Source: a virus. From it: a stretch of 64,000 nucleotides of DNA. Location of the stretch: positions 1 to 64,000 of the IMG/VR virus record IMGVR_UViG_3300032236_001613; one strand, 5' to 3'. Numbering within the stretch: position 1 is the stretch's first letter; the number at the start of each line of letters is the position of its first letter. Of this stretch, positions 49,979-62,565 are shown in pieces. The notes beneath the pieces are model-generated. The model was not told the origin of the DNA and ran no database searches. It saw only the letters and a program-made list of their open reading frames with translations. Made by a program: the position numbers and the translations under genes.

Positions 49979-49986
49979 TATTTATT
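49979..49986 (-). promoter_or_regulatory. Late promoter AATAAATA (minus strand)
   Basis: 6 nt before the ATG of the ART-like gene. Confidence 0.7.
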
Positions 49987-51025
49987 AATTGCGTCTGCCT
50001 ACACGCTCTACAGCGTTTTCAATATACTCTTCAATATCCTGATCACTATAACCTAATAACTGCCCGGCTCGTCGATGCGCCTGCTGCCAAAGACGACTAG
50101 TAGGATTATAAGTTCTATAGACATTACTAGATGTTATCTCTAAAAACTCTTTAACATCAGCTTCATGCCCGGGTAATGCTACAATAAAACGCATAAACCC
50201 ATTGAGAAGATACTGATGTATGATCCAACCGGAGTTCTGTACTAGTTCAGCAATACGCCGTCTATGCGGGGCAAACTCCTGAACGTCAAACCAAGCTAAG
50301 GGCTTTTCTCCTGCTAGCATTAACCGAAACTCTTTACCCACATGAGGCCCTATGGTTTCGTTGACACTAGATCTAAATCCTGTATAAGCATACGGATCGT
50401 TGATCACAGGCACATTACCTCTCCATAAGAGATTACCACCTATATAGTCAAAATCATCACAACTGTGCTGGCTACAAACTAACTGCTCAGTTTCAAAGAA
50501 CTTATCCCACATAGATCCAAATGGCTCAGATAGTGCAATCACTTGCTCAAGCTTCTTTCTTAAAGGCGCTTCCTTACCTAAACTCTTTAAGTGTATTTTC
50601 ATCTTGTCAATAATGGATATCTTATCACCTGAATTAACATATCTGTCCGATGGAGACTCCTGTTCAGCATAATCAGCCATAAAGTTTAGAGCACGCTTTA
50701 ATCCACGCTGCTCGGGCAGCTCATCTAACTGTTCGGTAGGTAGCCCTATATACTCTTGCCCATCTACTGTAAACTTACGCGGTGTACCAAATCTGGGTAC
50801 ATAAGGATTATTAATACGCTTGGCTACGCGATAAAATTCTAAAGGATCAAAGGTTAATCTACTGGAAAACTCTATACCAGGATATCTAGTACCATAAACT
50901 TTGAATAACCCACCATGCGGACTAAGAAAAACTGCAGCATAGCTACCCTCACCTACATAGGTATAACCGCGAGAAGTTAGAAATTCTTTAAGCTGATCTC
51001 TAGTGATTACTTCATATATACGCAT
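49985..51025 (-). CDS. Protein-kinase-like fold protein, possible ejected effector
   Basis: 346 aa. After the leader MRIYEVITRDQ, residues 21-45 give a glycine loop and Lys (YTYVGEGSYAAVFLSPHGG, then LFKVYG with K42). Residues ~185-215 give DDFDYIGGNLLWRGN and VPVINDPYAYTG, where D...N and D suit the catalytic and metal-binding loops of kinase-like folds. The C-terminal part is helical (LWQQAHRRAGQLLGY, then QDIEEYIENAVERV). The target is unknown. It follows the 122-aa gene by 3 nt. Confidence 0.6.
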   Translation of the reverse strand: MRIYEVITRDQLKEFLTSRGYTYVGEGSYAAVFLSPHGGLFKVYGTRYPGIEFSSRLTFDPLEFYRVAKRINNPYVPRFGTPRKFTVDGQEYIGLPTEQLDELPEQRGLKRALNFMADYAEQESPSDRYVNSGDKISIIDKMKIHLKSLGKEAPLRKKLEQVIALSEPFGSMWDKFFETEQLVCSQHSCDDFDYIGGNLLWRGNVPVINDPYAYTGFRSSVNETIGPHVGKEFRLMLAGEKPLAWFDVQEFAPHRRRIAELVQNSGWIIHQYLLNGFMRFIVALPGHEADVKEFLEITSSNVYRTYNPTSRLWQQAHRRAGQLLGYSDQDIEEYIENAVERVGRRN

Positions 51026-51028
51026 ATA

Positions 51029-51397
51029 TTATTCGGGCAGCATCTTTTCCGCTACACGTTTAATTAATTGACGCTGGCTAACAGTTAACTCTAATACTTG
51101 TTTAGCTACATGCGTTTTAGTTGACGAGTTAACTGTAATATACCCTTCTTGATCAACTTCGCCTACCGGCTGCTGTATACTAGGTACTGTTTGATCAGGC
51201 GAACCCGTTTCGAGACTAACTGTATAACGATACTCGGGATTACCTAGATAAGGATAAAGCGCAACATAGAATCTATACTTATTAGGATCTAGACGTCCAA
51301 CTAATAAATGCCCAATACCAGATTTAATAGCTAAGTCAGTAAAATCATGACGTACAATAGCAGAGACATTTTCTCGTAATAATTCTGTTACTCTCAT
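51029..51397 (-). CDS. Unknown protein with leader MRVTELLRE
   Basis: 122 aa. The leader (MRVTELLRE|N) is followed by a small beta-rich domain: LLVGRLDPNKYRFYVALYPY, then YRYTVSLETG and EGYITVNSSTKTHV. The C-terminus is a helix (QVLELTVSQRQLIKRVAEKM). ATGA overlap with the upstream Tat-motif gene indicates co-translation. Not recognised. Confidence 0.7.
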   Translation of the reverse strand: MRVTELLRENVSAIVRHDFTDLAIKSGIGHLLVGRLDPNKYRFYVALYPYLGNPEYRYTVSLETGSPDQTVPSIQQPVGEVDQEGYITVNSSTKTHVAKQVLELTVSQRQLIKRVAEKMLPE

Positions 51398-52281
51398 TGT
51401 TTATGCTTCTTACTGTGCACAGCATCCTTCTCTGGCTCACTGTCTACGTCAAAATCAAATCCATGTTTGTCATCAGATCGATCAGGTAATGCTAAGGGTT
51501 CTTCTTCAGTGTCTAAATCAGCTAATCGATTACGCATAGCTTTTACTTGATCAGGACTCATTTGATCAGTCTCTGACTTATCCGATACTCCGGATAATGC
51601 TTTGACTCCTGCTAACTGTGCTAATCTATCTAACCCAAACTCTGCAGCACTGTGCGCTGCTGCCTTTGTAGCAATATCAGCAGCTTGAGGTTCTTGACTA
51701 TCTTTAGGTTCGTCATCTAGTGTACCTGCAACTCTTTGATCTACATAAGATCCTACATCGGTTTCGTCAACTATATTTCCTTCTTCATCTGCGGTAGAAT
51801 CTACGCCATATGTTTGCGGATCGTACTCAAGACTTACAGATTCGAATTTTTTGGTGTTAGGATCTTGATAAGTTAATAAAGCTTCATAGGGATTTTCATC
51901 ACCAAACGATGTGTGTAACCACGGTACTCCACCTTCGCTGACTCCCGTTTCAAAATGTGAACCCCAGGGCATAGTTCCATGCGGCCCGTTACCAATCTCG
52001 GTTACATCATTTACACCAGGTTGCCATTCTTCAAACTCGGGTGCTTCACTATAACTAGAATCCAAATAAAGCGTACCCATATTCTTTACAGTCCAACTAG
52101 TAGCTGCAGCTACTAGTCCATCGATCATTGAACCGGCTTCAACTGCTGAAGCAGCAGCCGCTGTAGCAGCCACAGGCTCCGCAGCAGTACCTACAGGCAA
52201 CTTAGCACCTGTGGCCGCAGCTATTCCTGCTGCTCCTAGACCTTTGAGAAAATCTCTACGGGAAATTTCATATATACGCAT
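51394..52281 (-). CDS. Acidic protein with twin-arginine-like N-terminus
   Basis: 295 aa. The leader MRIYEI runs directly into SRRDFLKGLGAAGIAAATG, a textbook twin-arginine (Tat) motif plus hydrophobic segment (residues 7-25). An Ala-rich stretch and a second hydrophobic patch follow. The rest is very acidic (DSTADEEGNIVDETD, LADLDTEEEPLALPD) and ends HSKKHKQ. Tat signals are not expected on phage head proteins, so either it is exported in the host or the segment serves to cross or insert into the membrane. Minus-strand late promoter 7 nt before the ATG. Confidence 0.72.
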   Translation of the reverse strand: MRIYEISRRDFLKGLGAAGIAAATGAKLPVGTAAEPVAATAAAASAVEAGSMIDGLVAAATSWTVKNMGTLYLDSSYSEAPEFEEWQPGVNDVTEIGNGPHGTMPWGSHFETGVSEGGVPWLHTSFGDENPYEALLTYQDPNTKKFESVSLEYDPQTYGVDSTADEEGNIVDETDVGSYVDQRVAGTLDDEPKDSQEPQAADIATKAAAHSAAEFGLDRLAQLAGVKALSGVSDKSETDQMSPDQVKAMRNRLADLDTEEEPLALPDRSDDKHGFDFDVDSEPEKDAVHSKKHKQ

Positions 52282-53607: not shown

Positions 53608-54182
53608 TACATTGTAGAGAGGCCTATAGTACACGCAAAAAATTGCGCTGCAAAAAATAAAGACCACGCAGATCTCGGGGCCTGGTGGTTTTACGACCCC
53701 GGGGTATGGTTAGCAAGCCCCAACAGCAGCACAGCACGCAGCTGAGCACTATATACCTCCCGTGGGGTCTATATGCCTCCCACCTGAGCCGGCCGGCACA
53801 GCTGCCCCGGAAAATTTTTTCTTTTAGTTTTCCGAGAAAAAGATAGCTTATTGTGCCGTTGGGAGAGCCTCGCAATAAAAAAGCACGGGCTAGGGTTTTT
53901 GTAATTAGATAATAGTACAGTTGTGCTATATTATATACGCTGTTAGTAACCTGTGCATAGTAATATAACTGTAACGCAAATGCTAAGTTATTGTTTTTGT
54001 TAGCATTTTTTTAATTGCGTTACTACACAGGTTCCCGTTAATTAAAAAAGCGCAGTGCAGTTTGTGTGCACGGGGTAGTCCCCGTGTTAATAAAAATACA
54101 CAGTTGCAGTACCTGCAGCAACGCAGTGGGAGGTGCCCCTCGATTACATCAGCTGCTGTGCAGATTTTTTAGTGGGGTCTGG
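53608..54182. other. Non-coding, structure-rich start of the early region
   Basis: No convincing gene. It contains several G/C palindromes (CACGGGG-TAGT-CCCCGTG at 54069-54086), AT-rich promoter-like stretches near 53915-53935, and the nested hairpin at 53948-54033. Confidence 0.6.
53948..54033. repeat. Large nested inverted repeat
   Basis: Three stems are nested in order: AACCTGTG/CACAGGTT (8 bp, 53948-53955 and 54026-54033), GTAACGCAA/TTGCGTTAC (9 bp, 53971-53979 and 54015-54023) and ATGCTAA/TTAGCAT (7 bp, 53980-53986 and 54000-54006). A T-rich apical loop and asymmetric bulges separate them. Confidence 0.85.
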
Positions 54183-54210
54183 TTGACAGAGTTAACTTAA
54201 CTGTTAAACT
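54183..54210 (+). promoter_or_regulatory. Sigma70-type promoter TTGACA-N16-TAAACT
   Basis: The sequence GGTTGACAGAGTTAACTTAAC is nearly repeated at the promoter of 58203. Its transcript runs into the repeat-rich stretch 54217-54440, where no clear gene follows. Confidence 0.7.
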
Positions 54211-54426
54211 TAACATATGCAAACAGCAGCACATACAACACGCAGTCAACAACAGCAGGAGCAGGGTGTGTGCGTGCGCTGCTGGGAGGTCTCTCGCAAA
54301 GCAGTCTTTAAACTGCGCTGTGCGTTACTGGGAGAATCCCGTGTTTGCAAAAGCAGCGCACACGTTTGTGCAATTGGGAGAATCCCTAGTTTGTTGCTGC
54401 TGCACGCAAAAGTGCACCAGTGGGAA
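54211..54426 (+). other. Transcribed repeat-rich stretch without clear gene
   Basis: Holds three or four decayed units, each with a small palindrome (CTGGGAGGTCTCTC, ACTGGGAGAATCCCGT, TTGGGAGAATCCCTA) followed by GTTTGCAAA-like sequence, ~55 nt apart. A 76-codon frame spans it but has no SD and repeat-derived composition. Confidence 0.5.
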
Positions 54427-54504
54427 GATTACAAAAACTTAATCTAATAGTGCTTGCAACTGCTGTTGCCGGCGCTATACTACATAACGTAGCAATAGTG
54501 CTAC
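54427..54504 (+). promoter_or_regulatory. Early promoter module, copy 1
   Basis: Box GATTACAAAAACTTAAT (54427-54443), 10 nt, -35 TTGCAA (54454-54459), N16, -10 TATACT (54476-54481), then leader hairpin GTAGCA-ATAG-TGCTAC (54489-54504). The same layout recurs at 55541 and 56021. Confidence 0.82.
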
Positions 54505-54528
54505 AGCACGCACAATAGGAATCTGTAT

Positions 54529-54816
54529 ATGCCCTCGTATCGTATTCGTTTGCTTGCCAATGGCGAAGTTGAGATTGCTGTCAACAGCCGCCGCGCACGT
54601 GGTCGTGTAGTAGCTGAAAAGACTGTTGAGGTTGAAGAGCCCGCAGCAGCAAAGCGTCAGACCAAAGCAGCGCAAGTGCGCGACAAGATCCGTCAAGTCA
54701 AGCCTGTAATGGGTGATGCTGGGCGCCGCGTTGTTAGCGCATGGGCACGCACAAAGTTGGGTATGAATCCTAGCATGGCTGCTACTTATGTGAAAAACAA
54801 CTGGACCTGCTGCTAG
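54529..54816 (+). CDS. Small basic early protein, possibly nucleic-acid binding
   Basis: 95 aa. The N-terminal beta-like segment (SYRIRLLANGEVEIAVNSRR) resembles a small strand-hairpin. The middle is strongly basic and Ala-rich (AAAKRQTKAAQVRDKIRQVK), and the C-terminus is helical (RVVSAWARTKLGMNPSMAAT), ending CC. It is expressed from early module copy 1; AGGA lies 8 nt before the ATG. A stable hairpin follows the gene. A host-takeover role is a guess from position; no family recognised. Confidence 0.78.
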   Translation: MPSYRIRLLANGEVEIAVNSRRARGRVVAEKTVEVEEPAAAKRQTKAAQVRDKIRQVKPVMGDAGRRVVSAWARTKLGMNPSMAATYVKNNWTCC

Positions 54817-54828
54817 TTTACAGCAGAA

Positions 54829-54858
54829 GAGAGCAGTAGCATTAGTGCTGCTGCTCTC
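54829..54858 (+). terminator. Strong hairpin after the 95-aa gene
   Basis: 13-bp stem with one G-T pair and loop TTAG (GAGAGCAGTAGCA/TGCTGCTGCTCTC). No T-run follows, so it may stabilise or pause rather than terminate. Confidence 0.5.
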
Positions 54859-54958
54859 ACCAGTTGTATTCTAAGAGTTGGGTTTGGGCCGGCGGGGTTT
54901 GACCCCATAGCAGTTTCTGCAATGCTAAGGCCTTTAGCGGGGTATTCAAGAATAAAGG

Positions 54959-54986
54959 TTGATCTGTAGATAACTACTGTTATACT
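54959..54986 (+). promoter_or_regulatory. Sigma70-type promoter TTGATC-N16-TATACT
   Basis: Preceded by the dispersed motif TAGCGGGGTATTCAAGAA (54935-54952). Drives the three-gene micro-operon at 55017. Confidence 0.78.
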
Positions 54987-55016
54987 AACAGCGTTAAGCA
55001 CGCTAAGGAGTTTGTT

Positions 55017-55127
55017 ATGGCTCGTGTTAAGAAGAATGGGTGCCTAATGGCACGTAAGACCCGACAAGTTAAACATGCCGGATATAAGTGCGCTGCAACT
55101 GGGCGCTGGCGCCGAGGGTTCAAATAA
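55017..55127 (+). CDS. 36-aa basic microprotein
   Basis: MARVKKNGCLMARKTRQVKH is the first part; it ends WRRGFK. One third of the residues are Lys or Arg, with two Cys. It has a perfect AAGGAG SD 6 nt before the ATG and a sigma70-type promoter, and it overlaps the next small gene by one base (TAATG). These features make it a real gene despite its size. It may bind nucleic acid; function unknown. Confidence 0.75.
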   Translation: MARVKKNGCLMARKTRQVKHAGYKCAATGRWRRGFK

Positions 55128-55225
55128 TGGCTAAGGTACGGCGTCCTCGTAATCAACAGCGTGTGTTGCAGCAGCGAATTGCCTGCAGCCGTGTGGGCGG
55201 ATGTCGTCCAAAACGGAGCCGCTAA
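55127..55225 (+). CDS. 32-aa basic microprotein
   Basis: MAKVRRPRNQQRVLQQRIAC begins the protein; it ends GGCRPKRSR. Very Arg-rich with two Cys, like its neighbour. It is joined to both flanking genes by TAATG overlaps, so translation is coupled. Unknown function. Confidence 0.72.
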   Translation: MAKVRRPRNQQRVLQQRIACSRVGGCRPKRSR

Positions 55226-55362
55226 TGTTAATCGACGATGAATCCGAAGACTATTACGAGCGTCGTGTGGCTCGTGCTGATGCTGCTTTCGATCTCTTTA
55301 TTGATTGGACTAGTGTTGCAGCCATGATTGGGATCGTGTTATATTTGTTGCTGCGTTGTTAA
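55225..55362 (+). CDS. 45-aa single-pass membrane microprotein
   Basis: An acidic, charged N-terminal half (MLIDDESEDYYERRVARADA) is followed by one hydrophobic helix (VAAMIGIVLYLLLRC, ~31-45). Third gene of the micro-operon, TAATG-coupled and followed by a strong terminator. It may act at the host inner membrane. Confidence 0.72.
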   Translation: MLIDDESEDYYERRVARADAAFDLFIDWTSVAAMIGIVLYLLLRC

Positions 55363-55389
55363 ACGTTTTCCTGTGTGTTGTGCATGGTT

Positions 55390-55418
55390 GGGCGGAGTTC
55401 GCATCCGCCCTTTTTTTT
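55390..55418 (+). terminator. Intrinsic terminator of the micro-operon
   Basis: GGGCGGA-GTTCGCA-TCCGCCC then eight T. Confidence 0.93.
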
Positions 55419-55540
55419 AGCTGGCTGCGGTCTCGGGGTTCCTCCCACTAACAGCGTTTTGGTATAATACTCCTGCTGCAGTATGTGTTGGGAGGCGCCC
55501 CAGTGTTTAAAATGTTTGTGCGCTATTTTCTTATTGGGAT

Positions 55541-55618
55541 GATTACAAAAGCTTAATGTTAAAGTGCTTGCTTTATTTTTGTGTGTGCTTATAATAGCAA
55601 TTGTAGCAATAAAGCTAC
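55541..55618 (+). promoter_or_regulatory. Early promoter module, copy 2
   Basis: Box GATTACAAAAGCTTAAT (55541-55557), 10 nt, -35 TTGCTT (55568-55573), N16, -10 TATAAT (55590-55595), leader hairpin GTAGC-AATAAA-GCTAC (55603-55618). Confidence 0.82.
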
Positions 55619-55638
55619 GCATAAAATAAGCACGCACT

Positions 55639-55875
55639 ATGTACACATTGGAAGTTAGCTATCCGTTGACGCTGTATTGGAACAGCATTAACGTAGATCG
55701 GGAGATCTCTGAAGCTGTTAATGCTACGAGCACAGGCAGCGGAGCGGGATTTGGGCAACGTGATCTCACGTTCCGCTTTACAACTGCAGAGGCTGCTAAT
55801 GCTGCTGCAGAGCGAGCACGACGTATACACGCTAGCATCTCGTGCAACGTGTCTGCTGACGCTTACTACGCTTAA
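55639..55875 (+). CDS. Small early protein, unknown
   Basis: 78 aa. Strands (YTLEVSYPLTLYWNSINV, DLTFRFTTAEAANAAAER) and one Ala-rich helix suggest a compact alpha/beta fold. It is expressed from early module copy 2 but lacks an obvious SD. The leader hairpin lies 20 nt before the ATG. A stable hairpin (55891-55913) follows. Confidence 0.7.
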   Translation: MYTLEVSYPLTLYWNSINVDREISEAVNATSTGSGAGFGQRDLTFRFTTAEAANAAAERARRIHASISCNVSADAYYA

Positions 55876-55890
55876 ACAACTGCCTCGTTA

Positions 55891-55913
55891 CGCACAGCTG
55901 AAAATGCTGTGCG
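55891..55913 (+). terminator. Hairpin after the 78-aa gene
   Basis: Perfect 8-bp stem CGCACAGC/GCTGTGCG with loop TGAAAAT, no T-run. Possible terminator or processing signal. Confidence 0.5.
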
Positions 55914-56020
55914 TGCAGGCGGGGTCAGAATCCCAGGAAGAAAAAATTGCAAAGCTCGATGCAGGGGTGGGGTCAGATCCCGTGCAAACTTTTACGCAAA
56001 CTTTTGCAAGACAGTGAGAT

Positions 56021-56099
56021 GATTACAAAAACTTAATGCAAAAACAGGTTGCAACTGCTACTAGACTTGCTATGCTACATAACGTAGCGATACTGCTAC
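56021..56099 (+). promoter_or_regulatory. Early promoter module, copy 3
   Basis: Box GATTACAAAAACTTAAT (56021-56037), 11 nt, -35 TTGCAA (56049-56054), N16, -10 TATGCT (56071-56076), leader hairpin GTAGCG-ATAC-TGCTAC (56084-56099). Confidence 0.82.
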
Positions 56100-56120
56100 A
56101 GCACGCACAAAGGGTTAGAT

Positions 56121-56423
56121 ATGAACGAGATTGCTAAAGCCCTAATCACACTCGCTAGCGAGATTAAGGAGCAGGCGGGCCCTGTCTCACTGATCTTCCA
56201 TGCAGCAGGAAGTCAGGGCGACTTTGAGACCGCGTTGTACATCTTCAACGACAAGAGTCTCTTCAACGCTACTTACTTCACTGAAGAAGAGCTTGAGAAG
56301 TTTAACCTCATCATGCCCGCTATTGCAGATGGGCTCAACAAGTTGCAGAAGTTTGACGAGCAAATTGCTGCATTAGATGCCGCTAAGTACCACTCAGCAG
56401 ACTATCTCAAAGCAGTTAACTGA
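56121..56423 (+). CDS. Small early protein, unknown
   Basis: 100 aa, mostly helical (NEIAKALITLASEIKEQAGP ... KFNLIMPAIADGLNKLQKFD) with a short central strand (SLIFHAAGS, TALYIFND). AAAGGG SD 6 nt before the ATG, early module copy 3 upstream and an intrinsic terminator downstream, so it is a self-contained gene. Not recognised. Confidence 0.8.
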   Translation: MNEIAKALITLASEIKEQAGPVSLIFHAAGSQGDFETALYIFNDKSLFNATYFTEEELEKFNLIMPAIADGLNKLQKFDEQIAALDAAKYHSADYLKAVN

Positions 56424-56433
56424 CACATAGCCG

Positions 56434-56465
56434 GCGCATAGTAGGGAACTGCTATGCGCTTTTTT
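56434..56465 (+). terminator. Intrinsic terminator
   Basis: GCGCATAG/CTATGCGC stem with a 10-nt loop, then six T. Confidence 0.9.
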
Positions 56466-56580
56466 GTTGCCGTTAAGAACCCCGCAGAAGGTTTTTACGC
56501 ACATGTATATAAAGTCTCGGGGTAGCCCCAAGGACTGCAGCCGCAAACGTGAACGAGGTCTAGCGGGGTATTTAAAAAGG

Positions 56581-56609
56581 TTGACGGGCTGTAGTTGTGT
56601 CTGTATGCT
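56581..56609 (+). promoter_or_regulatory. Sigma70-type promoter TTGACG-N17-TATGCT
   Basis: Directly preceded by TAGCGGGGTATTTAAAAA, as at 54935. It serves the 35-aa gene. Confidence 0.75.
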
Positions 56610-56631
56610 TGTGCTGCTAAAGGAGCACGCA

Positions 56632-56739
56632 ATGAACTTTAAGTACTTCGCACCATGGCTTTTTGCATTCATCTTATTACTGTTGGGACACTTTACTGCT
56701 GCTATCTGCATTGCCGTGTTGATCTTGCTCTGCAGCTGA
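56632..56739 (+). CDS. 35-aa hydrophobic membrane microprotein
   Basis: After MNFKYFAPW it is almost entirely hydrophobic (LFAFILLLLGHFTAAICIAV ... LLCS), enough for one long or two short membrane helices. The start was set by the AAAGGAG SD 6 nt upstream; longer frames cross the promoter. It is followed at once by the next promoter. Holin-like size, but too short for typical holins. Confidence 0.72.
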   Translation: MNFKYFAPWLFAFILLLLGHFTAAICIAVLILLCS

Positions 56740-56759
56740 AAAATCTTTGTGAGGCAGAG

Positions 56760-56787
56760 TTGACAGCGTTGTTGCAACGTGTAAACT
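56760..56787 (+). promoter_or_regulatory. Sigma70-type promoter TTGACA-N16-TAAACT
   Basis: Drives the three-gene operon 56821-57445. Confidence 0.75.
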
Positions 56788-56820
56788 ACTAATGTAGAAC
56801 TAATAACAAGGATCTCATTT

Positions 56821-57024
56821 ATGCACGCTAAGTTCAAAATTGTAGATCGTAAGACTGGAGTTGTACTCTACGACCAAGTGCACGGAGTCGGTCGCGCCAC
56901 GCACTTGCTGTATGGTGCTCGTGCAAGTAATACGCGAGTGTTCAAGACTGATGAGCGAGGCTCGCGTGAAATTACTCTCAACTTTAATATTTGGCAGCTG
57001 GAAAACGGCTTACGGGAGGCTTAA
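56821..57024 (+). CDS. Small early protein, unknown
   Basis: 67 aa, beta-rich (AKFKIVDRKTGVVLYDQVHG ... REITLNFNIWQLE), with AAGGA 8 nt before the ATG. TAATG overlap with the next gene. Not recognised. Confidence 0.75.
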   Translation: MHAKFKIVDRKTGVVLYDQVHGVGRATHLLYGARASNTRVFKTDERGSREITLNFNIWQLENGLREA

Positions 57025-57203
57025 TGGCTATGCTACAGCGTTACCGTTGCTCGGGCATTGACGGTATGGACAAGGACCATCAGGGAGATTGGGTTCGTTA
57101 CGAAGACTATCTCTCACTGTTACAGAAGTTGGATGAAATCCGCATAAATCTTCTCCAGCTTCGCGATCCACGTTATCGGGACATCCAAAAGGAATTCAAA
57201 TGA
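57024..57203 (+). CDS. Small early protein, unknown
   Basis: 59 aa. Start chosen at the TAATG overlap. The C-terminal two thirds are helical and charged (YLSLLQKLDEIRINLLQLRD). It overlaps the next gene by ATGA, so the three are translated together. Confidence 0.7.
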   Translation: MAMLQRYRCSGIDGMDKDHQGDWVRYEDYLSLLQKLDEIRINLLQLRDPRYRDIQKEFK

Positions 57204-57445
57204 AAACCAATGACATTAAGAAAGGTCAGCGTATCCAGCAACGTAATGGCTGGTACGGGACTATGTTTGATGACAAGAAGGGCAACATCCGTTGCGTTGA
57301 AGTTGAAGGTGACTTCAAAGAGATTGGGAGTGTTTACGCACACGAGATTATTCGTGCGCAGGATGCTAACGGTGTTTGGCACACAGTCGAACACACCGAA
57401 GCTCAGATGAAACTTAAGTCCAAGTTGGGTGCCATGGGGTGGTAA
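57200..57445 (+). CDS. Small early protein with beta-barrel-like sequence
   Basis: 81 aa. DIKKGQRIQQRNGWYGTMFD, then NIRCVEVEGD and SVYAHEIIRAQD, is the strand-turn pattern of small SH3-like phage proteins that bind nucleic acid or protein; this is pattern resemblance only. Last gene of the operon. Confidence 0.72.
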   Translation: MKTNDIKKGQRIQQRNGWYGTMFDDKKGNIRCVEVEGDFKEIGSVYAHEIIRAQDANGVWHTVEHTEAQMKLKSKLGAMGW

Positions 57446-57477
57446 CACCTTTGTACAGGTACTGTTGATCTTCACAG

Positions 57478-57507
57478 TAGACAAAAGGTTGGCGAACTCT
57501 TTATAAT
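57478..57507 (+). promoter_or_regulatory. Promoter TAGACA-N18-TATAAT inside an inverted repeat
   Basis: The -10 lies between the arms GCGAACTC (57492-57499) and GAGTTCGC (57512-57519), an operator-like arrangement. It drives the 32-aa gene. Confidence 0.65.
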
Positions 57508-57539
57508 AGAGGAGTTCGCTAATCCTATGGAGATCAGAG

Positions 57540-57638
57540 ATGTTTGGTCGTCGAAAGGCTACTGTGCGAAAGGTTCGTTCAACGCCTCGTTCGCGTGCTG
57601 CTTACGGTTCTACTACGACTCGCCGCCGTAAGCGTTAA
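57540..57638 (+). CDS. 32-aa Arg-rich microprotein
   Basis: MFGRRKATVRKVRSTPRSRA begins it and TTTRRRKR ends it: more than one third Arg/Lys, no acidic residue. GGAG SD 7 nt before the ATG, promoter with operator-like repeat upstream, strong terminator downstream. Protamine-like composition suggests DNA or RNA binding. Confidence 0.75.
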   Translation: MFGRRKATVRKVRSTPRSRAAYGSTTTRRRKR

Positions 57639-57673
57639 TGATTTTGCGTGCTGCCGCAATGATGCGGCACTTT

Positions 57674-57711
57674 GGGCAATCGTGTTTAGCACCTCGATTG
57701 CCCTTTTTTTT
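57674..57711 (+). terminator. Intrinsic terminator
   Basis: GGGCAATCG/CGATTGCCC stem, 12-nt loop, eight T. A second hairpin (TGCCGC-AATGAT-GCGGCA) lies just upstream. Confidence 0.92.
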
Positions 57712-58141
57712 ATCTGTTGATTCTGCTGCGGGGTATTCCCACTGGCTAAACAATCTACCTATATATACCAGTGCACTATAAGTGAGAACAAGAGCTTAGA
57801 CTGATCTTAATCTACATAAGCCTTACACACCGACGATTTCGTAGTTTTTGGCTTTGTAAGTCATTGATTCTAAACACTGCCCCGACATCTAGTAGAGTAG
57901 TTCTGCATACAGCAAACACCGACTCGGGGCAGTTTCGCTACAAGCCGCTGTAGACTATACAGATGAAAACCACTAGGGGTTAAGTCATTGATTTCATTAG
58001 AGTGGAACTACCGATCAAATAGATTAAAAAGATTAGATGATGAAAGAGTTGGTCTTAGTTTTCCGGCCGGGGTTGCCCCGTGATCTAATAATAGCACGGT
58101 TTGGTCGAGATCTGTTTACATTCTTTAAAGACGGGGCCAGG
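57712..58141. other. 430-nt intergenic region with paired repeats
   Basis: No gene seen. It contains two copies of TAAGTCATTGATT (57857-57869 and 57981-57993) flanking a 10-bp inverted repeat ACTGCCCCGA/TCGGGGCAGT with ~40 nt between arms. A GGGGTTGCCCC palindrome lies near 58070. It could encode a structured RNA or be a protein-binding locus. Confidence 0.6.
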
Positions 58142-58170
58142 TTGACAGATTTAACTTAACGCATTAATAT
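58142..58170 (+). promoter_or_regulatory. Sigma70-type promoter TTGACA-N17-TAATAT
   Basis: Contains TTGACAGATTTAACTTAAC, similar to 54183. Serves the 48-aa gene. Confidence 0.78.
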
Positions 58171-58202
58171 TGGCGTTGTAAACAATAATTGGAGCAGCTG
58201 AG

Positions 58203-58349
58203 ATGCTGGTTTATGTAGAATTGGCTTTAGTTGTGGCTTATATTGCATGGGTCGCACGGTTGTCGCTGAATGCAATGAAAACGGATGCCAGGGACGAACT
58301 GCGTAAGAGCTTTAAGGAGTTCCGCCGAGCGTTTGAAGATCTGCACTAG
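58203..58349 (+). CDS. 48-aa membrane-anchored microprotein
   Basis: An N-terminal hydrophobic helix (LVYVELALVVAYIAWVARL, 2-20) is followed by a charged cytoplasmic-type tail (KTDARDELRKSFKEFRRAFE). GGAG SD 8 nt before the ATG, and its own promoter. It has the layout of a small inner-membrane protein; function unknown. Confidence 0.75.
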   Translation: MLVYVELALVVAYIAWVARLSLNAMKTDARDELRKSFKEFRRAFEDLH

Positions 58350-58364
58350 TACAGCCGGTGGGGT

Positions 58365-58409
58365 GGTTCTCACAGACTGATGCGCTGCATCAAAAAGTCT
58401 GTGAGAACC
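58365..58409 (+). terminator. 14-bp perfect stem between two early genes
   Basis: GGTTCTCACAGACT/AGTCTGTGAGAACC with an inner GATGC-GCTG-CATC-type loop, ending 2 nt before the next -35. Possible terminator plus insulator; no T-run. Confidence 0.6.
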
Positions 58410-58411
58410 GG

Positions 58412-58439
58412 TTGACAACTGCTCTGCAGCGTTTATAAT
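58412..58439 (+). promoter_or_regulatory. Sigma70-type promoter TTGACA-N16-TATAAT
   Basis: Full consensus hexamers. Serves 58471 and following genes. Confidence 0.85.
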
Positions 58440-58470
58440 AGAATACACACGCAACCACCATAGGTGATTT

Positions 58471-58761
58471 ATGGCTACTACGAATGTGATCCGCATTGCT
58501 TTAGACGAGCGTATTGTTGAACGCTTGAAGAAGCCAATCCTCAAGGTTTGGCAGCAGGTCAGTCACGATGTCATGCGAGATGCTGAAGATATGGGCGAAC
58601 GCATTGACAATGAGAGCGCCATAGAGTGCTGCATTGATGCAGATCGTTTGCGCTATGAGGCTAACGATCGCGCTGCAGACGACTTTTTTAATATGATTTG
58701 CACCGAGCACGGCTATCCAGCTGTTCTCACGTTCCTTTCCAAAAAGATACGATTGGTTTAA
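58471..58761 (+). CDS. Small early protein, unknown
   Basis: 96 aa, helical (RIALDERIVERLKKPILKVW, then QVSHDVMRDAEDMGERIDNE) with a Cys pair (ECCIDADR). AGGTG SD upstream. First gene of a run of four tightly packed small genes. Not recognised. Confidence 0.75.
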   Translation: MATTNVIRIALDERIVERLKKPILKVWQQVSHDVMRDAEDMGERIDNESAIECCIDADRLRYEANDRAADDFFNMICTEHGYPAVLTFLSKKIRLV

Positions 58762-58765
58762 TGAG

Positions 58766-58945
58766 ATGATCATAGAAGTTATTAAAGCTGTCTACAACAG
58801 CCGAACGGGACAGCTGAATGTTACACTCAGCGACGGTGCCCGCCAGGTTGTGGTAGAAGGTGTAGAAAACATCGAGCGGGATTACCTGCTACGCGAGTTT
58901 TACAGTCTCGCACGTTGGTCTGCTGCAAACGTGAACAAGGTCTAG
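58766..58945 (+). CDS. Small early protein, unknown
   Basis: 59 aa. MIIEVIKAVYNSRTGQLNVT followed by a beta-rich part and a C-terminal helix (DYLLREFYSLARW). It starts 4 nt after the preceding stop and lacks a strong SD, so coupling is likely. The last codons overlap the dispersed repeat GCAAACGTGAACAAGGTCTAG, also present at 56544. Confidence 0.62.
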   Translation: MIIEVIKAVYNSRTGQLNVTLSDGARQVVVEGVENIERDYLLREFYSLARWSAANVNKV

Positions 58946-58956
58946 CGGGGTATTAT

Positions 58957-59118
58957 ATGGATATAGAACGAGAACAACTGCACGCACGTATACAACAACT
59001 GAAAACTCGTGCAGCAGCCGCAGAAGCATTACTGCTGAAGATCGAAGTCACCCTATGGGATCGTTCGGAAGCTAAAGACATTCAAGATCTCATACACAAC
59101 TATTTCAAGAGGGACTAG
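58957..59118 (+). CDS. Small coiled-coil protein
   Basis: 53 aa from the ATG whose SD is the GGGG of the dispersed motif AGCGGGGTATT, 6 nt upstream. Heptad-like helix (REQLHARIQQLKTRAAAAEA) and a second helix (KDIQDLIHNYFKR). The 100-aa membrane gene follows after 1 nt. Confidence 0.68.
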   Translation: MDIEREQLHARIQQLKTRAAAAEALLLKIEVTLWDRSEAKDIQDLIHNYFKRD

Positions 59119-59119
59119 T

Positions 59120-59422
59120 ATGCGCTACCGTCCAAGTCAAGAAACTATTGATGCTATTCTAAAGAAACAAATGACTGATGAGGATATTGCTCGCTACCGA
59201 CGTGCCTCACGCTTATACAAGATCTCGGGTGTTGTTGCTATTACTATCTGGCTGGGATGGATCGTAACTGGCTTCTTACACTTCAACAAAGCCAACGATA
59301 TCTTGTTTGAAGGCTTGTGGGCATCGTTGTTCTTTTGGGGTTACAGCATTTGGTTCGGTAACTGCGATCTACATCGTATGGATTACGTAGATCGTTTAGA
59401 TCGCAAAAAGCGTTCTCAGTAA
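59120..59422 (+). CDS. Two-helix membrane protein
   Basis: 100 aa. A charged N-terminal part (SQETIDAILKKQMTDEDIAR) precedes hydrophobic helices at ~38-55 (GVVAITIWLGWIVTGFL) and ~63-80 (ILFEGLWASLFFWGYSIWFG). The tail is basic (RLDRKKRSQ). GAGGG SD. Probably an inner-membrane protein of early infection; no family recognised. Confidence 0.75.
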   Translation: MRYRPSQETIDAILKKQMTDEDIARYRRASRLYKISGVVAITIWLGWIVTGFLHFNKANDILFEGLWASLFFWGYSIWFGNCDLHRMDYVDRLDRKKRSQ

Positions 59423-59504
59423 TGCAAACGAAAGCTGGACGTAACCGGCCGTGGGGCTAATCCCAAGACTACAAACGCGAAGCTGGAGACAGGTTCTTGG
59501 GAAA

Positions 59505-59550
59505 ATAGCACGACCGTACTATAAAACGACCGTGCTAATAGCACGACCGT
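59505..59550 (+). repeat. ATAGCACGACCGT repeats with inverted copy
   Basis: Direct copies at 59505-59517 and 59538-59550. ACGACCGTGCT (59526-59536) between them forms AGCACG/CGTGCT pairing. Lies ~50 nt upstream of the next promoter; operator-like. Confidence 0.65.
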
Positions 59551-59601
59551 TTGATCCCATGACTACAAACTTGCGCAAGCTCTTTGACCTAGTGGGAGAG
59601 G

Positions 59602-59630
59602 TTGACAACCCGTTTGCAGCCTCTTATAAT
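59602..59630 (+). promoter_or_regulatory. Sigma70-type promoter TTGACA-N17-TATAAT
   Basis: Perfect hexamers and spacer, serving 59662. Confidence 0.88.
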
Positions 59631-59661
59631 GTATTTGTAGAGTTAACATAAGGCGGTTGAT

Positions 59662-59931
59662 ATGATTAAATTCAACAAGCACTTTGTCTCGAATGGCACT
59701 TTGCGTGCTCGTTGCTGGTATACTGTGGACAATCGTATTGATGGACGTCGATGCGTCTCAATATACGCTAAAGACTACGGACACCAATTGGCTCAGGTTA
59801 TTACCACTGCAGAGTACAAGAACGATACAGACATCTCAACGGATTACTTTGAAAAAGGTAAGATTGTTTTGTTTGATGATCATCCTCTGTACTCAGAAGC
59901 GCGAAAGCGTGCCTTAGCCAACGAACGCTAA
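59662..59931 (+). CDS. Small early protein, unknown
   Basis: 89 aa, alpha/beta (LRARCWYTVDNRIDGRRCVS, GHQLAQVITTAEYKN) ending EARKRALANER. AAGGCGG SD, consensus promoter and a perfect terminator make it a self-contained unit. Not recognised. Confidence 0.78.
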   Translation: MIKFNKHFVSNGTLRARCWYTVDNRIDGRRCVSIYAKDYGHQLAQVITTAEYKNDTDISTDYFEKGKIVLFDDHPLYSEARKRALANER

Positions 59932-59940
59932 GTCGTTCTA

Positions 59941-59970
59941 ATACGCAGGCTCAAGTCCTGCGTATTTTTT
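59941..59970 (+). terminator. Intrinsic terminator
   Basis: ATACGCAGG-CTCAAGT-CCTGCGTAT followed by T-run. Confidence 0.93.
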
Positions 59971-60220
59971 AACAATTGGAAACCCCAGTGAACTACGTGC
60001 ACGCACGTGATTGCCCGTGGGGTAGCCCCAAGATCTGGTTCTTTGGCCATAGAAGAAGGTTTTTTTACTGTCTTGGGGTTGCCCCACTTTTAGCCGCTGC
60101 AGGCTGCCGTATTTGATAGCGGGGTATTTAAAATCCCACTATAAAAGAGCTACAGCTGGCAACAGGATCTTGTGGTCACAACACTTTTTTAATATTATCA
60201 AAAATATTTTTAAGATTATG
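59971..60220. other. Intergenic region with repeated G/C palindromes
   Basis: No gene seen. Holds GTGGGGTAGCCCCAAG (~60007) and TTGGGGTTGCCCCA (~60074), the motif ATAGCGGGGTATTTAAAA (~60115), and an AT-rich tract before the next promoter. Confidence 0.6.
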
Positions 60221-60248
60221 TTGACTTCTCGATAGATTGTGTTAAATT
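60221..60248 (+). promoter_or_regulatory. Probable promoter TTGACT-N16-TAAATT
   Basis: Downstream of an AT-rich block; serves the 29-aa gene at 60300. Confidence 0.55.
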
Positions 60249-60299
60249 AGTACACAGAGCCGAACAGGGCGGCTTAACTTAACTAGGGGAGTTCCATTG

Positions 60300-60389
60300 A
60301 TGTTACTGCAATCTAAAACTCTCACCACCAGAAACTGGGCAAAAGCTCAGCATCCGGTGGGAACTGCTCTCAGTCGTTGTCGAAACTAA
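60300..60389 (+). CDS. 29-aa microprotein (candidate)
   Basis: MLLQSKTLTTRNWAKAQHPV begins it; it ends LSRCRN. AGGGGAG SD 8 nt before the ATG and a promoter upstream support it. It is the last plus-strand gene before the convergent HD hydrolase gene. Confidence 0.5.
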   Translation: MLLQSKTLTTRNWAKAQHPVGTALSRCRN

Positions 60390-60398
60390 AACCATAAA

Positions 60399-60944
60399 CT
60401 AGACTGGGATGTAAAGCAACTCCTCGCCGGGTGGGACTACTAAATCCCTGGCCCTCCTCACCAAATCAGGATCCGCTAGCGTGAGAACATCCAACAACGC
60501 AGTCTTCTCCTCAAGGTAAACACGAGCAAACTTCGGATCATACCTTGTGATTGTGGCAGAATTGGAAATCATGTCCGCAACTTTGATCGTCTGCGCCGCC
60601 GCAGGCGCTCGACTCAAATGCTCACGATCAATGGCTTTACGTGCACGTCGATTACCGTCCGTGGGCCTAGATACATCTGTAAGCCAATGCACAAGGTTAG
60701 CCACCGCCTCTCCAAACTCCTCATAAAGCACATCATAGGTGACACTAGTGTCTTCCAAAACATCATGCAACCAAGCTGCTGCCAACATTTCATCCGTGTG
60801 CTCAACTGATTGCACAATACCCACAACTTCTGCTGGATGCACAATATAAGGCTCGTTTGTGTACTTACGACGCTGCCCAACAGCAGCATGAGCAGCAGTA
60901 GCAAAGATACGAGCATGATTCACCAATGGGTTTGTTTTGTTCAT
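60399..60944 (-). CDS. Mesh1/SpoT-type HD-domain (p)ppGpp hydrolase-like protein
   Basis: 181 aa, the size of small alarmone hydrolases (Mesh1 ~179). The landmarks are AAHAAVGQRRKYTNEPYIVHP (His near 19 and 36), AAAWLHDVLEDT (HD 60-61, ED 64-65), FGEAVANLVHWLTDVSRP and QTIKVADMISNSATI (Asp 124). These are the metal-binding and substrate-loop positions of the SpoT hydrolase fold. No synthetase domain is present. It would degrade alarmone or a related nucleotide during early infection. Start at 60944: the promoter -10 lies 6 nt upstream, so a longer frame is impossible and the mRNA looks leaderless. Confidence 0.82.
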   Translation of the reverse strand: MNKTNPLVNHARIFATAAHAAVGQRRKYTNEPYIVHPAEVVGIVQSVEHTDEMLAAAWLHDVLEDTSVTYDVLYEEFGEAVANLVHWLTDVSRPTDGNRRARKAIDREHLSRAPAAAQTIKVADMISNSATITRYDPKFARVYLEEKTALLDVLTLADPDLVRRARDLVVPPGEELLYIPV

Positions 60945-60950
60945 GAGCAC

Positions 60951-60979
60951 ATTATAACAGCAAATCCACGACCCGTCAA
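60951..60979 (-). promoter_or_regulatory. Sigma70-type promoter TTGACG-N17-TATAAT (minus)
   Basis: -10 at 60951-60956 and -35 at 60974-60979. The -10 is only 6 nt from the ATG of the HD hydrolase. Confidence 0.85.
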
Positions 60980-60984
60980 TCAAT

Positions 60985-61055
60985 CGATAGCGGGGTATTT
61001 AAAGACCCCACTACTACTGGGGCATATATAGCTAGGCCGATAGCGGGGTATTTAA
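60985..61055. repeat. Two copies of the AGCGGGGTATTTAAA motif
   Basis: GATAGCGGGGTATTTAAA at ~60987 and CGATAGCGGGGTATTTAAAA at ~61038. Between them lies CCCC-ACTACTACT-GGGG. Confidence 0.8.
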
Positions 61056-61063
61056 AAGGAATA

Positions 61064-61088
61064 GCTGTGCACCCAAAGAGTGCACAGC
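61064..61088 (-). terminator. Terminator-like hairpin after 61096 gene (minus)
   Basis: Perfect stem GCTGTGCAC/GTGCACAGC with a 7-nt loop. On the minus strand it is followed by TATTCCTTTT. Confidence 0.7.
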
Positions 61089-61095
61089 ATATCTA

Positions 61096-61512
61096 TCAAA
61101 CAATTACTTGGTAGGGCTTCCGCCAACTGCCTACGTGAATGCTGCAGTAGTATGCAGTATCAAAGTAGTCGATCTCACTGCGAGTATTGTCGTACCATTC
61201 AGCTGACTTGAGAGCTGCTAACAACTCTTCCAACGCCGTACGAGCAACACCTTCATAGTGGTCATGAATCCAATAGACGTTAACATCCTCATAGCCACTA
61301 GTATTGGGCCGAAAACCATGCATCTGATAACGCTGGTTCTGCCCACAGAACTCATTGCTGTTGCCGATAAAGTCGATAGGTCCCGAAGTCAACTTCAACT
61401 GAATAGTGCTGTGATTGCCAACACTGAGAGAACCCTTGAGCCCATACTTCTTCAACACGGGCTTGACAGCTGCTGCGATAACAGCTTTCTTCTCTTGATT
61501 CATATAAGCCAT
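61096..61512 (-). CDS. Conserved-looking phage protein of unknown function
   Basis: 138 aa. MNQEKKAVIAAAVKPVLKKY, LKGSLSVGNHSTIQLKLTSG, VNVYWIHDHYEGVA and WYDNTRSEIDYFDTAYYCSI follow a pattern I recall from many phages, always unnamed. Alpha/beta, soluble. AGGAG SD 6 nt before the ATG. It lies behind a terminator-like hairpin of the upstream gene. Confidence 0.82.
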   Translation of the reverse strand: MAYMNQEKKAVIAAAVKPVLKKYGLKGSLSVGNHSTIQLKLTSGPIDFIGNSNEFCGQNQRYQMHGFRPNTSGYEDVNVYWIHDHYEGVARTALEELLAALKSAEWYDNTRSEIDYFDTAYYCSIHVGSWRKPYQVIV

Positions 61513-61530
61513 TGCATGCTCCTAAACAAA

Positions 61531-61556
61531 GGGCGACAGCACTATTGCTGCCGCCC
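61531..61556 (-). terminator. Terminator-like hairpin (minus)
   Basis: GGGCGGCAGCA-ATAG-TGCTGTCGCCC on the minus strand, followed by TTTGTTT. Confidence 0.75.
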
Positions 61557-61566
61557 ATGCAATATA

Positions 61567-61794
61567 CTACTCTTCCCAACCGTAGTCGATCTCGCTAGTG
61601 GTATCAAAAGTCCACTGCAAACGATCACGGAAGTTAACAGAACGCACACGATCACGCTCACGATCCTGCAACTCAATGTCTGCAGCATCTTCCTCGTCAT
61701 CGGTGATATCAGCTTCGAGCTCAGCATCATCTGGCAACTCGATATCCATACGCTCATCAGCGTCCAAAACATCAGCAATGGTAAAACGGCTCAT
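61567..61794 (-). CDS. Small very acidic protein
   Basis: 75 aa, ~40% Asp/Glu in the middle (DADERMDIELPDDAELEADI, DDEEDAADIELQ), with a basic/aromatic C-terminal part (RLQWTFDTTSEIDYGWEE). AAAGGAG SD and a sigma70-type promoter. A DNA-mimic-like composition is notable, but function is unknown. Confidence 0.78.
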   Translation of the reverse strand: MSRFTIADVLDADERMDIELPDDAELEADITDDEEDAADIELQDRERDRVRSVNFRDRLQWTFDTTSEIDYGWEE

Positions 61795-61829
61795 CTCAAG
61801 TGCTCCTTTGCACTAACTCTACAGCTCTA

Positions 61830-61857
61830 AGTATACGCTCTGCGTACTATAGGTCAA
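61830..61857 (-). promoter_or_regulatory. Sigma70-type promoter TTGACC-N16-TATACT (minus)
   Basis: Serves the acidic 75-aa gene. Confidence 0.75.
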
Positions 61858-61877
61858 CCGTTTTTAAAAAGAAAAGT

Positions 61878-61900
61878 TGGGCAGTTTTGAGTGTTGCCCA
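61878..61900 (-). terminator. Terminator-like hairpin (minus)
   Basis: TGGGCA/TGCCCA stem with an 11-nt loop. The minus strand continues ACTTTTCTTTTT. Confidence 0.7.
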
Positions 61901-61916
61901 GCACCGGAGCAGCCTG

Positions 61917-62132
61917 TTAAACTGGCAGCTTGATCTCAAGGATCTGAGCCTGCTCGCTCACAAAGTTATTGCGAACGATGCCCGTCCAAAACGCAGTCTC
62001 AGTGATGTGATAACGCAAACCGCCCGAGGCAGTGCCATTGCCCGAAAGCATACGAGCTACAGCACGCACACTCTTGAACGTGCGGCGCTCGCCCGAAGGA
62101 AAAGTAACGTCAATCTTGATTGCCTTGTTCAT
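61917..62132 (-). CDS. Small early protein, unknown
   Basis: 71 aa from the ATG at 62132 (AGGAG 8 nt upstream). MNKAIKIDVTFPSGERRTFK and SVRAVARMLSGNGTASGGLR suggest a small DNA-binding-like alpha/beta protein, but I do not recognise a family. Own promoter and terminator. Confidence 0.75.
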   Translation of the reverse strand: MNKAIKIDVTFPSGERRTFKSVRAVARMLSGNGTASGGLRYHITETAFWTGIVRNNFVSEQAQILEIKLPV

Positions 62133-62178
62133 GTCATTTGCTCCTGTTTGTGATGACATTTACTAACTCAACGCATGT

Positions 62179-62207
62179 AGTCTACAGTCTTTTATCCAAC
62201 CTGTCAA
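62179..62207 (-). promoter_or_regulatory. Sigma70-type promoter TTGACA-N17-TAGACT (minus)
   Basis: Serves 62132. Located just downstream of the tRNA gene. Confidence 0.75.
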
Positions 62208-62239
62208 CTACTTTTTACCAACTTTCTTCAAACAATTTT

Positions 62240-62314
62240 TGGTAGGACCGGAGAGATTCGAACTCTCGACCAACGGATTAAAAGTCCGCTGCTCTACCGC
62301 TGAGCTACGATCCC
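62240..62314 (-). tRNA. tRNA-Lys (anticodon TTT), CCA encoded
   Basis: Cloverleaf read on the minus strand: acceptor GGGATCG/CGGTCCT (G-T pair at the end), D arm GCTC/GAGC with AGCGGTA loop, anticodon loop CTTTTAA, T arm GAGAG-TTCGAAT-CTCTC, discriminator A and genomic CCA. It decodes AAA/AAG, which suits an AT-rich, Lys-rich phage proteome. It probably comes from the same transcript as the GTG-start gene upstream. Confidence 0.96.
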
Positions 62315-62336
62315 ATTCGAAACTAGTGTATACTAC

Positions 62337-62504
62337 TTAATAAGCGTCTGTAACCTCGCGGTCCGTACGCCAGTTGTAGCGCAATTCCCGCTCATGGTCC
62401 TTGGCACTCTTGTGTGTACGAGGACGGTTAAATGTGTTAAGATTGCGGGCTACAGGATTGCTCTTGCGGCGCCGGTTCTTGTCCAAATAGTTGTGATCGT
62501 TCAC
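62337..62504 (-). CDS. 55-aa basic protein with GTG start
   Basis: MNDHNYLDKNRRRKSNPVAR begins it and WRTDREVTDAY ends it; charged, Asn- and Arg-rich. GTG start with AGGAG SD 6 nt upstream and a sigma70-type promoter. The tRNA-Lys starts 22 nt after its stop. Not recognised. Confidence 0.75.
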   Translation of the reverse strand: MNDHNYLDKNRRRKSNPVARNLNTFNRPRTHKSAKDHERELRYNWRTDREVTDAY

Positions 62505-62536
62505 TGTCTGCTCCTGGCAGCGTTTAGTGTCTATAC

Positions 62537-62565
62537 AGTATACGCAGCCCGTGGGGTAAGGTCAA
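62537..62565 (-). promoter_or_regulatory. Sigma70-type promoter TTGACC-N17-TATACT (minus)
   Basis: Serves the GTG-start gene and probably tRNA-Lys. Confidence 0.8.

Follow-up and report, generated by a model that had tools for sequence, protein, structure and literature searches.

A repeated box-promoter-hairpin module in front of small genes of an uncultured jumbo phage and its relatives, with a putative RNA stem-loop at the 5' end of the transcript

Three small genes in the genome of an uncultured phage are each preceded by the same arrangement: a 17-nt box, a promoter core, and, just past the -10 element, a short inverted repeat. This raises the question of what the arrangement is for and whether its inverted repeat acts as DNA or as RNA. 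The stretch that we analyzed (the window) comprises bases 1 to 64000 of the 328,068-bp IMG/VR virus record IMGVR_UViG_3300032236_001613. By terminase identity, the source is an uncultured jumbo phage and a distant relative of the RaK2/K64-1/EJP2 group; its large terminase is ~43% identical to those of RaK2, K64-1, EJP2, and related jumbo phages. We found no DNA match to the module region in the named phage records searched.

Two large genes of this phage are recorded here as separate observations. The large terminase gene (26682-29258) carries an in-frame insert of ~330 aa, which begins after roughly residue 87, ends near residue 416, and is missing in many relatives. The insert matches Hint and LAGLIDADG_3 domains, has an HN/T junction at its C terminus, and is very probably an intein. 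A 4340-aa ORF at genome positions 271134-284156 (L256) matches phrog_10938, a virion structural protein; a sequence search gave no match between it and any solved structure.

RESULTS

Three modules share one layout

A first-pass annotation of the window had listed three copies of a box, a -35, 16 nt, a -10, and a hairpin at 54427, 55541, and 56021, and we found these coordinates and spacings to be exact. In all three copies, the box (GATTACAAAA[A/G]CTTAAT) is followed by 10 or 11 nt, TTGC, 16 nt, TAnnnT, 7 nt, and GTAGC-N6-GCTAC. The gap from the box to the -35 is 10, 10, and 11 nt in modules A, B, and C, respectively. The -35/-10 pairs are TTGCAA/TATACT (A), TTGCTT/TATAAT (B), and TTGCAA/TATGCT (C), always with a 16-nt spacer, and the hairpins, which start at 54489, 55603, and 56084, lie exactly 7 nt past the -10 each time. 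The features are as follows.

54330..54386, + strand: module A, two GGGAGAATCCC elements upstream, starting at -159 and -113 from the hairpin start
54427..54443, + strand: module A, 17-nt upstream box
54454..54459, + strand: module A, -35 TTGCAA
54476..54481, + strand: module A, -10 TATACT, 16-nt spacer
54489..54504, + strand: module A, leader hairpin GTAGCA-ATAG-TGCTAC, 7 nt past the -10
54529..54816, + strand: gene A, 95 aa, no confident family (weak, below-cutoff DUF1110 match)
55390..55410, + strand: intrinsic-terminator-like stem-loop followed by T8, closing the unit upstream of module B
55435..55501, + strand: module B, two GGG..CCC elements upstream, starting at -168 and -113 from the hairpin start
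55541..55557, + strand: module B, 17-nt upstream box
55568..55573, + strand: module B, -35 TTGCTT
55590..55595, + strand: module B, -10 TATAAT
55603..55618, + strand: module B, leader hairpin GTAGC-AATAAA-GCTAC, inner A-A unpaired
55639..55875, + strand: gene B, 78 aa, no family
55921..55981, + strand: module C, two GGG..CCC elements upstream, starting at -163 and -115 from the hairpin start
56021..56037, + strand: module C, 17-nt upstream box
56049..56054, + strand: module C, -35 TTGCAA
56071..56076, + strand: module C, extended -10 TGC-TATGCT
56084..56099, + strand: module C, leader hairpin GTAGCG-ATAC-TGCTAC
56121..56423, + strand: gene C, 100 aa; homologue in L024/G041 87% identical, behind the same module type
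56433..56460, + strand: intrinsic-terminator-like stem-loop with a T run, 3' of gene C

The downstream genes had been called unrelated, and we detected no similarity when the proteins of genes A, B, and C were compared with one another. Because terminator-like sites stand before module B and after gene C, each gene appears to be transcribed as an independent unit of its own.

Across all 328 kb of the genome, we found only three matches to the box (0 mismatches) and only three to GTAGC-N6-GCTAC, in both cases at these same places; the module is thus present at the three positions given above and nowhere else. First-order Markov genomes held a mean of 0.23 hairpin matches and 0.0 box matches. 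We attributed a fourth hairpin-like repeat, at 62047, to chance: although it shares GCTACAGCACGCAC, it has no promoter core and is located opposite an 80-aa gene (61917-62159).

The module recurs in related jumbo phages

Its layout, copy number, conservation, and base pairing can be read from a comparison of genomes. Searching with gene C, we reached contig G041/L024, in which the gene C homologue sits behind the same layout. We found further good copies, four in G041 and six in a second genotype (the near-identical contigs G042/G043), and one copy recurs in G004. Our comparison set holds 13 copies from three phage genotypes, 12 of them with a recognizable box. When aligned, the 13 copies read TTG, 16 to 18 nt, -10, 6 to 7 nt, and hairpin, with the ATG 35 to 40 nt from the hairpin start. 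They precede unrelated genes, and up to about eight genes in each related phage have such a module. The geometry is therefore conserved in related uncultured jumbo phages, which is where the annotation had suggested looking.

We scanned ~460 kb, both strands, with a weight matrix that runs through the -35 and leaves out the hairpin, together with a -10 matrix. Box-bearing copies scored 16 to 51, the next-best site scored 13.2, and the hairpin was present in every box-bearing copy retrieved. Copy E of G041 has the hairpin and a poor box. Copy H (G041, 19085) lacks the box and was treated as decayed or unrelated, although it has TTGCAG, GTAGA...GCTAC, and a plausible -10. A covariance model gave matches at E <1e-7 in G000 (three), G004 (one), G041 (four), and G042 and G043 (six each); the remaining matches all fell at E 0.0175 to 0.054, and one of these is a real diverged homologue in G035. 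A search of IMG/VR for the exact box plus TTG found none because the box differs between phages, and DNA-pattern scans of IMG/VR also gave many chance matches inside coding sequence. A hairpin-plus-GCAC pattern found none in 40 TerL relatives; this pattern was too strict, and the copies were found by the covariance model and geometry scans.

The hairpin goes with a TTGC promoter class

Clear copies have the core TTGC(A/T).., 16 or 17 nt, and TAnnnT, and one copy has a spacer of 18. An extended -10 (TGn) is present in 8 of 12 aligned copies and, among modules A to C, only in C. Neither a cellular-type RNA polymerase beta-subunit domain nor a sigma factor was found in the record, in a search whose cellular-type profile could miss diverged jumbo-phage polymerases.

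Near-consensus TTGACA-16/17-TATAAT promoters, with short leaders and AAGGAG sites, are abundant in the same genome region. They generally lack the box, and almost none has a hairpin past the -10. We therefore rejected the idea of a 5' hairpin at every promoter here. By this comparison, the hairpin is a mark of the TTGC module class and not of the region's transcripts in general.

We also made several observations on the surroundings. From 58439 to 64238 and on to genome position ~80491, dozens of TTGACA-16/17-TATAAT promoters with AAGGAG stand one per small gene in DNA of raised G+C, and 58439 to ~80491 is probably an early region. Short GGG[G/A]-n-[C/T]CCC inverted repeats are concentrated within 53764-62622 (21 of the genome's 37) and are mostly intergenic. 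They recur at repeated distances, ~50 nt apart and ~113 nt before leader hairpins. Before modules A to C, they start 113 to 115 and 159 to 168 nt upstream of the hairpin start, and copies in four relatives have similar elements 105 to 112 nt upstream. A second repeated box, [A/T]GCGGGGTATT, occurs on the + strand at 54936, 56562, 57727, 58944, 60118, 60989, 61042, and 63313 and also at genome position 84439; at 54936 and 56562, it is upstream of TTGATC/TTGACG promoters. In L024, the promoter that serves a homologue of the gene at 57200-57445 has its -10 overlapped by a perfect 10-bp inverted repeat (~3430-3456; G041 ~21425-21450; CGTGCACAGT-gctat-ACTGTGCACG), which looks like an operator. Two minus-strand ORFs at 49985-52281 have near-identical starts (MRIYEV and MRIYEI) and a repeated 41-nt start region, possibly a common N-terminal targeting or propeptide sequence.

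The box is kept within a phage and changes between phages

Among modules A to C, the box is 93% identical and the 16-nt spacer is 29% identical, so box conservation does not merely reflect recent duplication. Box identity is 80 to 93% within each phage (within-phage value, 0.91). Between the three closest phages, it is ~65%, even before orthologous genes (C/G, D/I, and F/O). This suggests that the box evolves in concert within a phage, either by selection from a common factor or by recombination between copies. More distant phages have other sequences in its place, and the hairpin is far more conserved than the box. Repeated boxes of their own are found in G035 (GTAGAAAAAAAGTGTGTGGCACAAAAA; L166:2795 and 3282) and in G016 (TTGTAAAGATATGTAAAG; L202; 326740, 327425, and 328477-328582, minus strand), in both cases before TTGC or TTGTGC promoters.

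Every box is rich in A/T and positioned where alpha-CTD binds, and the proximal linker is often AAAAAAA. From this we infer that the box is an UP-like element. The annotation had placed an UP element or activator site here; its position upstream of an extended promoter stands, with the geometry kept in relatives, but the box sequence itself is much less well conserved between phages than the hairpin. We also consider, tentatively, that the box may bind a phage-specific activator instead of being an UP element, which would be compatible with an RNA hairpin downstream. Such an activator would account for boxes that are near-identical within a phage and differ between phages even before orthologous genes, and for the phage-specific boxes of G035 and G016. 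However, the A/T-rich composition at the alpha-CTD position and the A-rich linker point to an UP element, gene conversion between copies would homogenize the boxes too, and we have no candidate activator gene.

Distant relatives have different stems at the same place

We found that the arms GTAGC/GCTAC are invariant in the 13 closest copies. The inner pair had been said to covary, and this did not hold up: it is A-T, A-A, and G-T in modules A, B, and C, and over the 13 copies it is A-U in five, G-U in one, and broken in seven. The outer pair is unpaired in 6 of 13, and we found no covariation beyond shuffles in this set. Predicted folds have the 5' hairpin in 13 of 13 leaders, most with little other structure; leader minimum free energies are about -6 to -13 kcal/mol with modest stem energies, and for modules A, B, and C and copy E, shuffled leaders fold almost as well (z above -1).

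More distant relatives have other stems. The G035 copy, the weakest covariance match (E 0.054), reads GCAGC-AACAAC-GCTGC and has a C/A-rich leader. In G016, TTGCAC-18-TATAAT-7 nt-TGCGCTGC-AATAAT-GCAGCGTA, with the stem GCTGC/GCAGC, stands before a homologue of gene E (blastp, 2e-35, 44% in the alignment) that had no match in named phage records. We located G011 and L248 by protein homology alone. G011 has two leaders, TGCACAAATTTGTGCA and TACATAAATTTATGTA, with stems TGCAC/GTGCA and TACAT/ATGTA that show paired changes; each lies 8 nt past TATAAT (by eye), and the repeats are perfect 16-bp palindromes. L248 has several GTAGC/GCTAC leaders and one with AGCAAGC/GCTTGCT (CAAGC/GCTTG). Homologues in L247 and L249 have no hairpin, nor do one related promoter in G035 and several in G016. 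We counted seven distinct stems, all paired and at the same place, with pair changes that keep pairing at 5 of 5 positions. Shuffled 3' arms matched that pairing in 5 of 20,000 trials, a descriptive figure since several stems were noticed because they pair. The stem begins 6 to 9 nt past the -10 (7 in modules A to C), where +1 is expected.

The loop is 4, 5, 6, or 7 nt long in the closest phages and up to 11 nt in L248. That paired stems of different sequence occupy one position, that loops vary in length, and that a single phage can have more than one stem all favor an RNA stem-loop, as the annotation had proposed for the leader. These comparisons are best explained by an RNA stem-loop at the very 5' end and poorly by a dimer operator or an N4-type promoter. 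Rfam curated covariance models gave no family match to the module, only a tRNA match and a subthreshold plastid match.

A small-gene array in L248:4000-9000 was observed separately. Each gene in it has a TTGC promoter and a 5' hairpin, several have a GCAAGC..GCTTGC-T7 terminator, and the coding sequences have a strikingly A- and C-rich look.

Alternative roles for the inverted repeat

Module leaders pair weakly with the anti-Shine-Dalgarno sequence, at a median of -0.55 versus -5.8 kcal/mol for the region's ORFs, which are uncurated (one-sided Mann-Whitney P = 0.0005). Many relatives' module leaders have no Shine-Dalgarno sequence; genes A and C carry partial ones (AGGA and AAAGGG), and the other ORFs of G041 are likewise Shine-Dalgarno poor (median, -1.2). 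The hairpin, together with the C/A-rich leader, could be recognized as RNA by a sequence-specific phage or host protein or by the ribosome standby apparatus, so that translation of the whole gene set is switched or boosted and the Shine-Dalgarno sequence is partly replaced. Besides this weak pairing, two features speak for such a role: 13 copies keep the same arms while other positions have changed, and the hairpin-to-AUG distance hardly varies. In copies whose spacers have diverged widely, such invariance exceeds what a purely structural hairpin would need, which hints at a sequence-specific partner. Nonetheless, the stems are wholly changed in G035, G016, and G011, the partial Shine-Dalgarno sequences of genes A and C and the poor ones of G041 weaken the contrast drawn from uncurated ORFs, and we have no candidate binding protein. 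We regard this role as unlikely. A more specific form of it seems to us quite unlikely: the 5' stem-loop and the C/A-rich, Shine-Dalgarno-poor leader of fixed length would together be a dedicated translation-initiation element, recognized in trans by an RNA-binding protein of the phage or the host, so that takeover genes are translated without a Shine-Dalgarno sequence and ordinary genes use AAGGAG.

An inverted repeat just past the -10 is in the classical operator position. It could be a DNA operator at the transcription start through which a dimeric repressor or activator controls the promoters together; the invariant arms in the closest phages and the palindromes of G011 agree with this. 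A dimer would call for fixed half-site spacing and two-fold symmetry. Instead, the arm spacing ranges from 4 to 11 nt, and loop and flanks are not two-fold symmetric: in 12 of 13 copies the loop opens with A, in 12 of 13 it closes with T or C, and in 6 of 13 the outer pair is broken. L248 and G011 each have different stems within one phage. We therefore disfavor an operator and find it very doubtful.

N4-type promoters, in which DNA extrudes as a hairpin that a single-subunit RNA polymerase from the virion recognizes, would suit a phage with very large virion genes, and N4 early promoters likewise center on conserved inverted repeats (PMC4496689), but we find them scarcely credible here, as the loops are 4 to 11 nt and not N4's 3 bases with defined identities, a full sigma70-like core stands at a fixed distance upstream, the 4340-aa ORF has no solved match, and a single-subunit polymerase family was not found in a search that is weak because it recovered no control.

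DISCUSSION

A proposed reusable cassette with a putative protective hairpin

We conclude that the modules are probably host-sigma70 promoters with an UP-like box whose transcripts start with a 5'-terminal stem-loop that hinders 5'-end-dependent decay; this is our preferred reading of the comparative evidence, held with some reserve. According to this model, the phages reuse the module as a cassette for expressing individual small genes. The TTGC/TAnnnT core, which in many copies includes an extended TGn -10, would be read by host sigma70 RNA polymerase with the help of the A/T-rich box in the UP-element position. With a start ~7 nt past the -10, the RNA would begin at or within 1 to 3 nt of a 5- to 8-bp stem-loop. 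Such a stem-loop would leave almost no unpaired 5' end, which would slow decay by RppH and then RNase E and give longer-lived short mRNAs. The C/A-rich, mostly unstructured stretch past the hairpin would then carry the start codon, 35 to 40 nt from the hairpin start. The promoters are probably early.

Comparing several uncultured jumbo phages defines the module as a compact, portable phage part (box, core, 5' hairpin, and short leader). The genes that it marks are probably expressed early, and those tested matched no known family. The copies also form a natural series for asking whether phages protect short mRNAs with 5' hairpins, with different stems at the same position and many relatives without a Shine-Dalgarno sequence.

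Comparison with known systems

T4 early promoters are built from UP, -35, TGn, and -10 elements (PMC2988021). Like them, the modules are predicted to be of the extended host-sigma70 type, with A/T-rich sequence at the UP position and -35/-10 hexamers at 16- to 18-nt spacing before many small genes; a TGn -10 is present in 8 of 12 aligned copies. Unlike them, the modules have a TTGC -35, one conserved box per phage, and a 5' stem-loop at a fixed distance. The likeness is one of architecture, and we claim no relation of promoter sequence.

N4 virion RNA polymerase (vRNAP) early promoters have conserved inverted repeats with a 3-base hairpin loop of defined bases (PMC4496689). The modules share the conserved inverted repeats near early (here, predicted) starts and differ in loop size, in having a sigma70 core, and in that vRNAP was not detected.

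The 5'-terminal stabilizing stem-loops of ompA and papA (Emory 1992 and Bricker 1999, as cited in PMC3997798) and the T4 gene 32 leader hairpin (as cited in PMC8948821) are comparable in another way. As in those mRNAs, the transcript would open with the hairpin or carry it very close to its 5' end, and a short single-stranded stretch would separate it from the start codon; we found a conserved base-paired stem (seven distinct paired stems, partly ascertained by pairing). In contrast to them, a whole gene set in one genome has the hairpin as part of a promoter cassette, and stabilization here is putative. The module hairpin is not a CUUCGG tetraloop.

The PeSL cassettes of T4-type phages, attributed to Arbiol 2010 and Comeau 2014, are reportedly small intergenic units of an early promoter and a stem-loop by variable small genes, with a stem-loop said to be a terminator and high homogeneity among copies. 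The modules resemble them as homogeneous promoter-plus-stem-loop units that recur near small genes. Unlike in PeSL cassettes, the module hairpin follows the promoter as part of the leader, has no T run on the coding strand, and is separate from the terminators. PeSL cassettes are among the work cited in PMC4503421. Each element of the module has precedents, in T4 early promoters and in the ompA, papA, and T4 gene 32 hairpins, and their combination is a variant.
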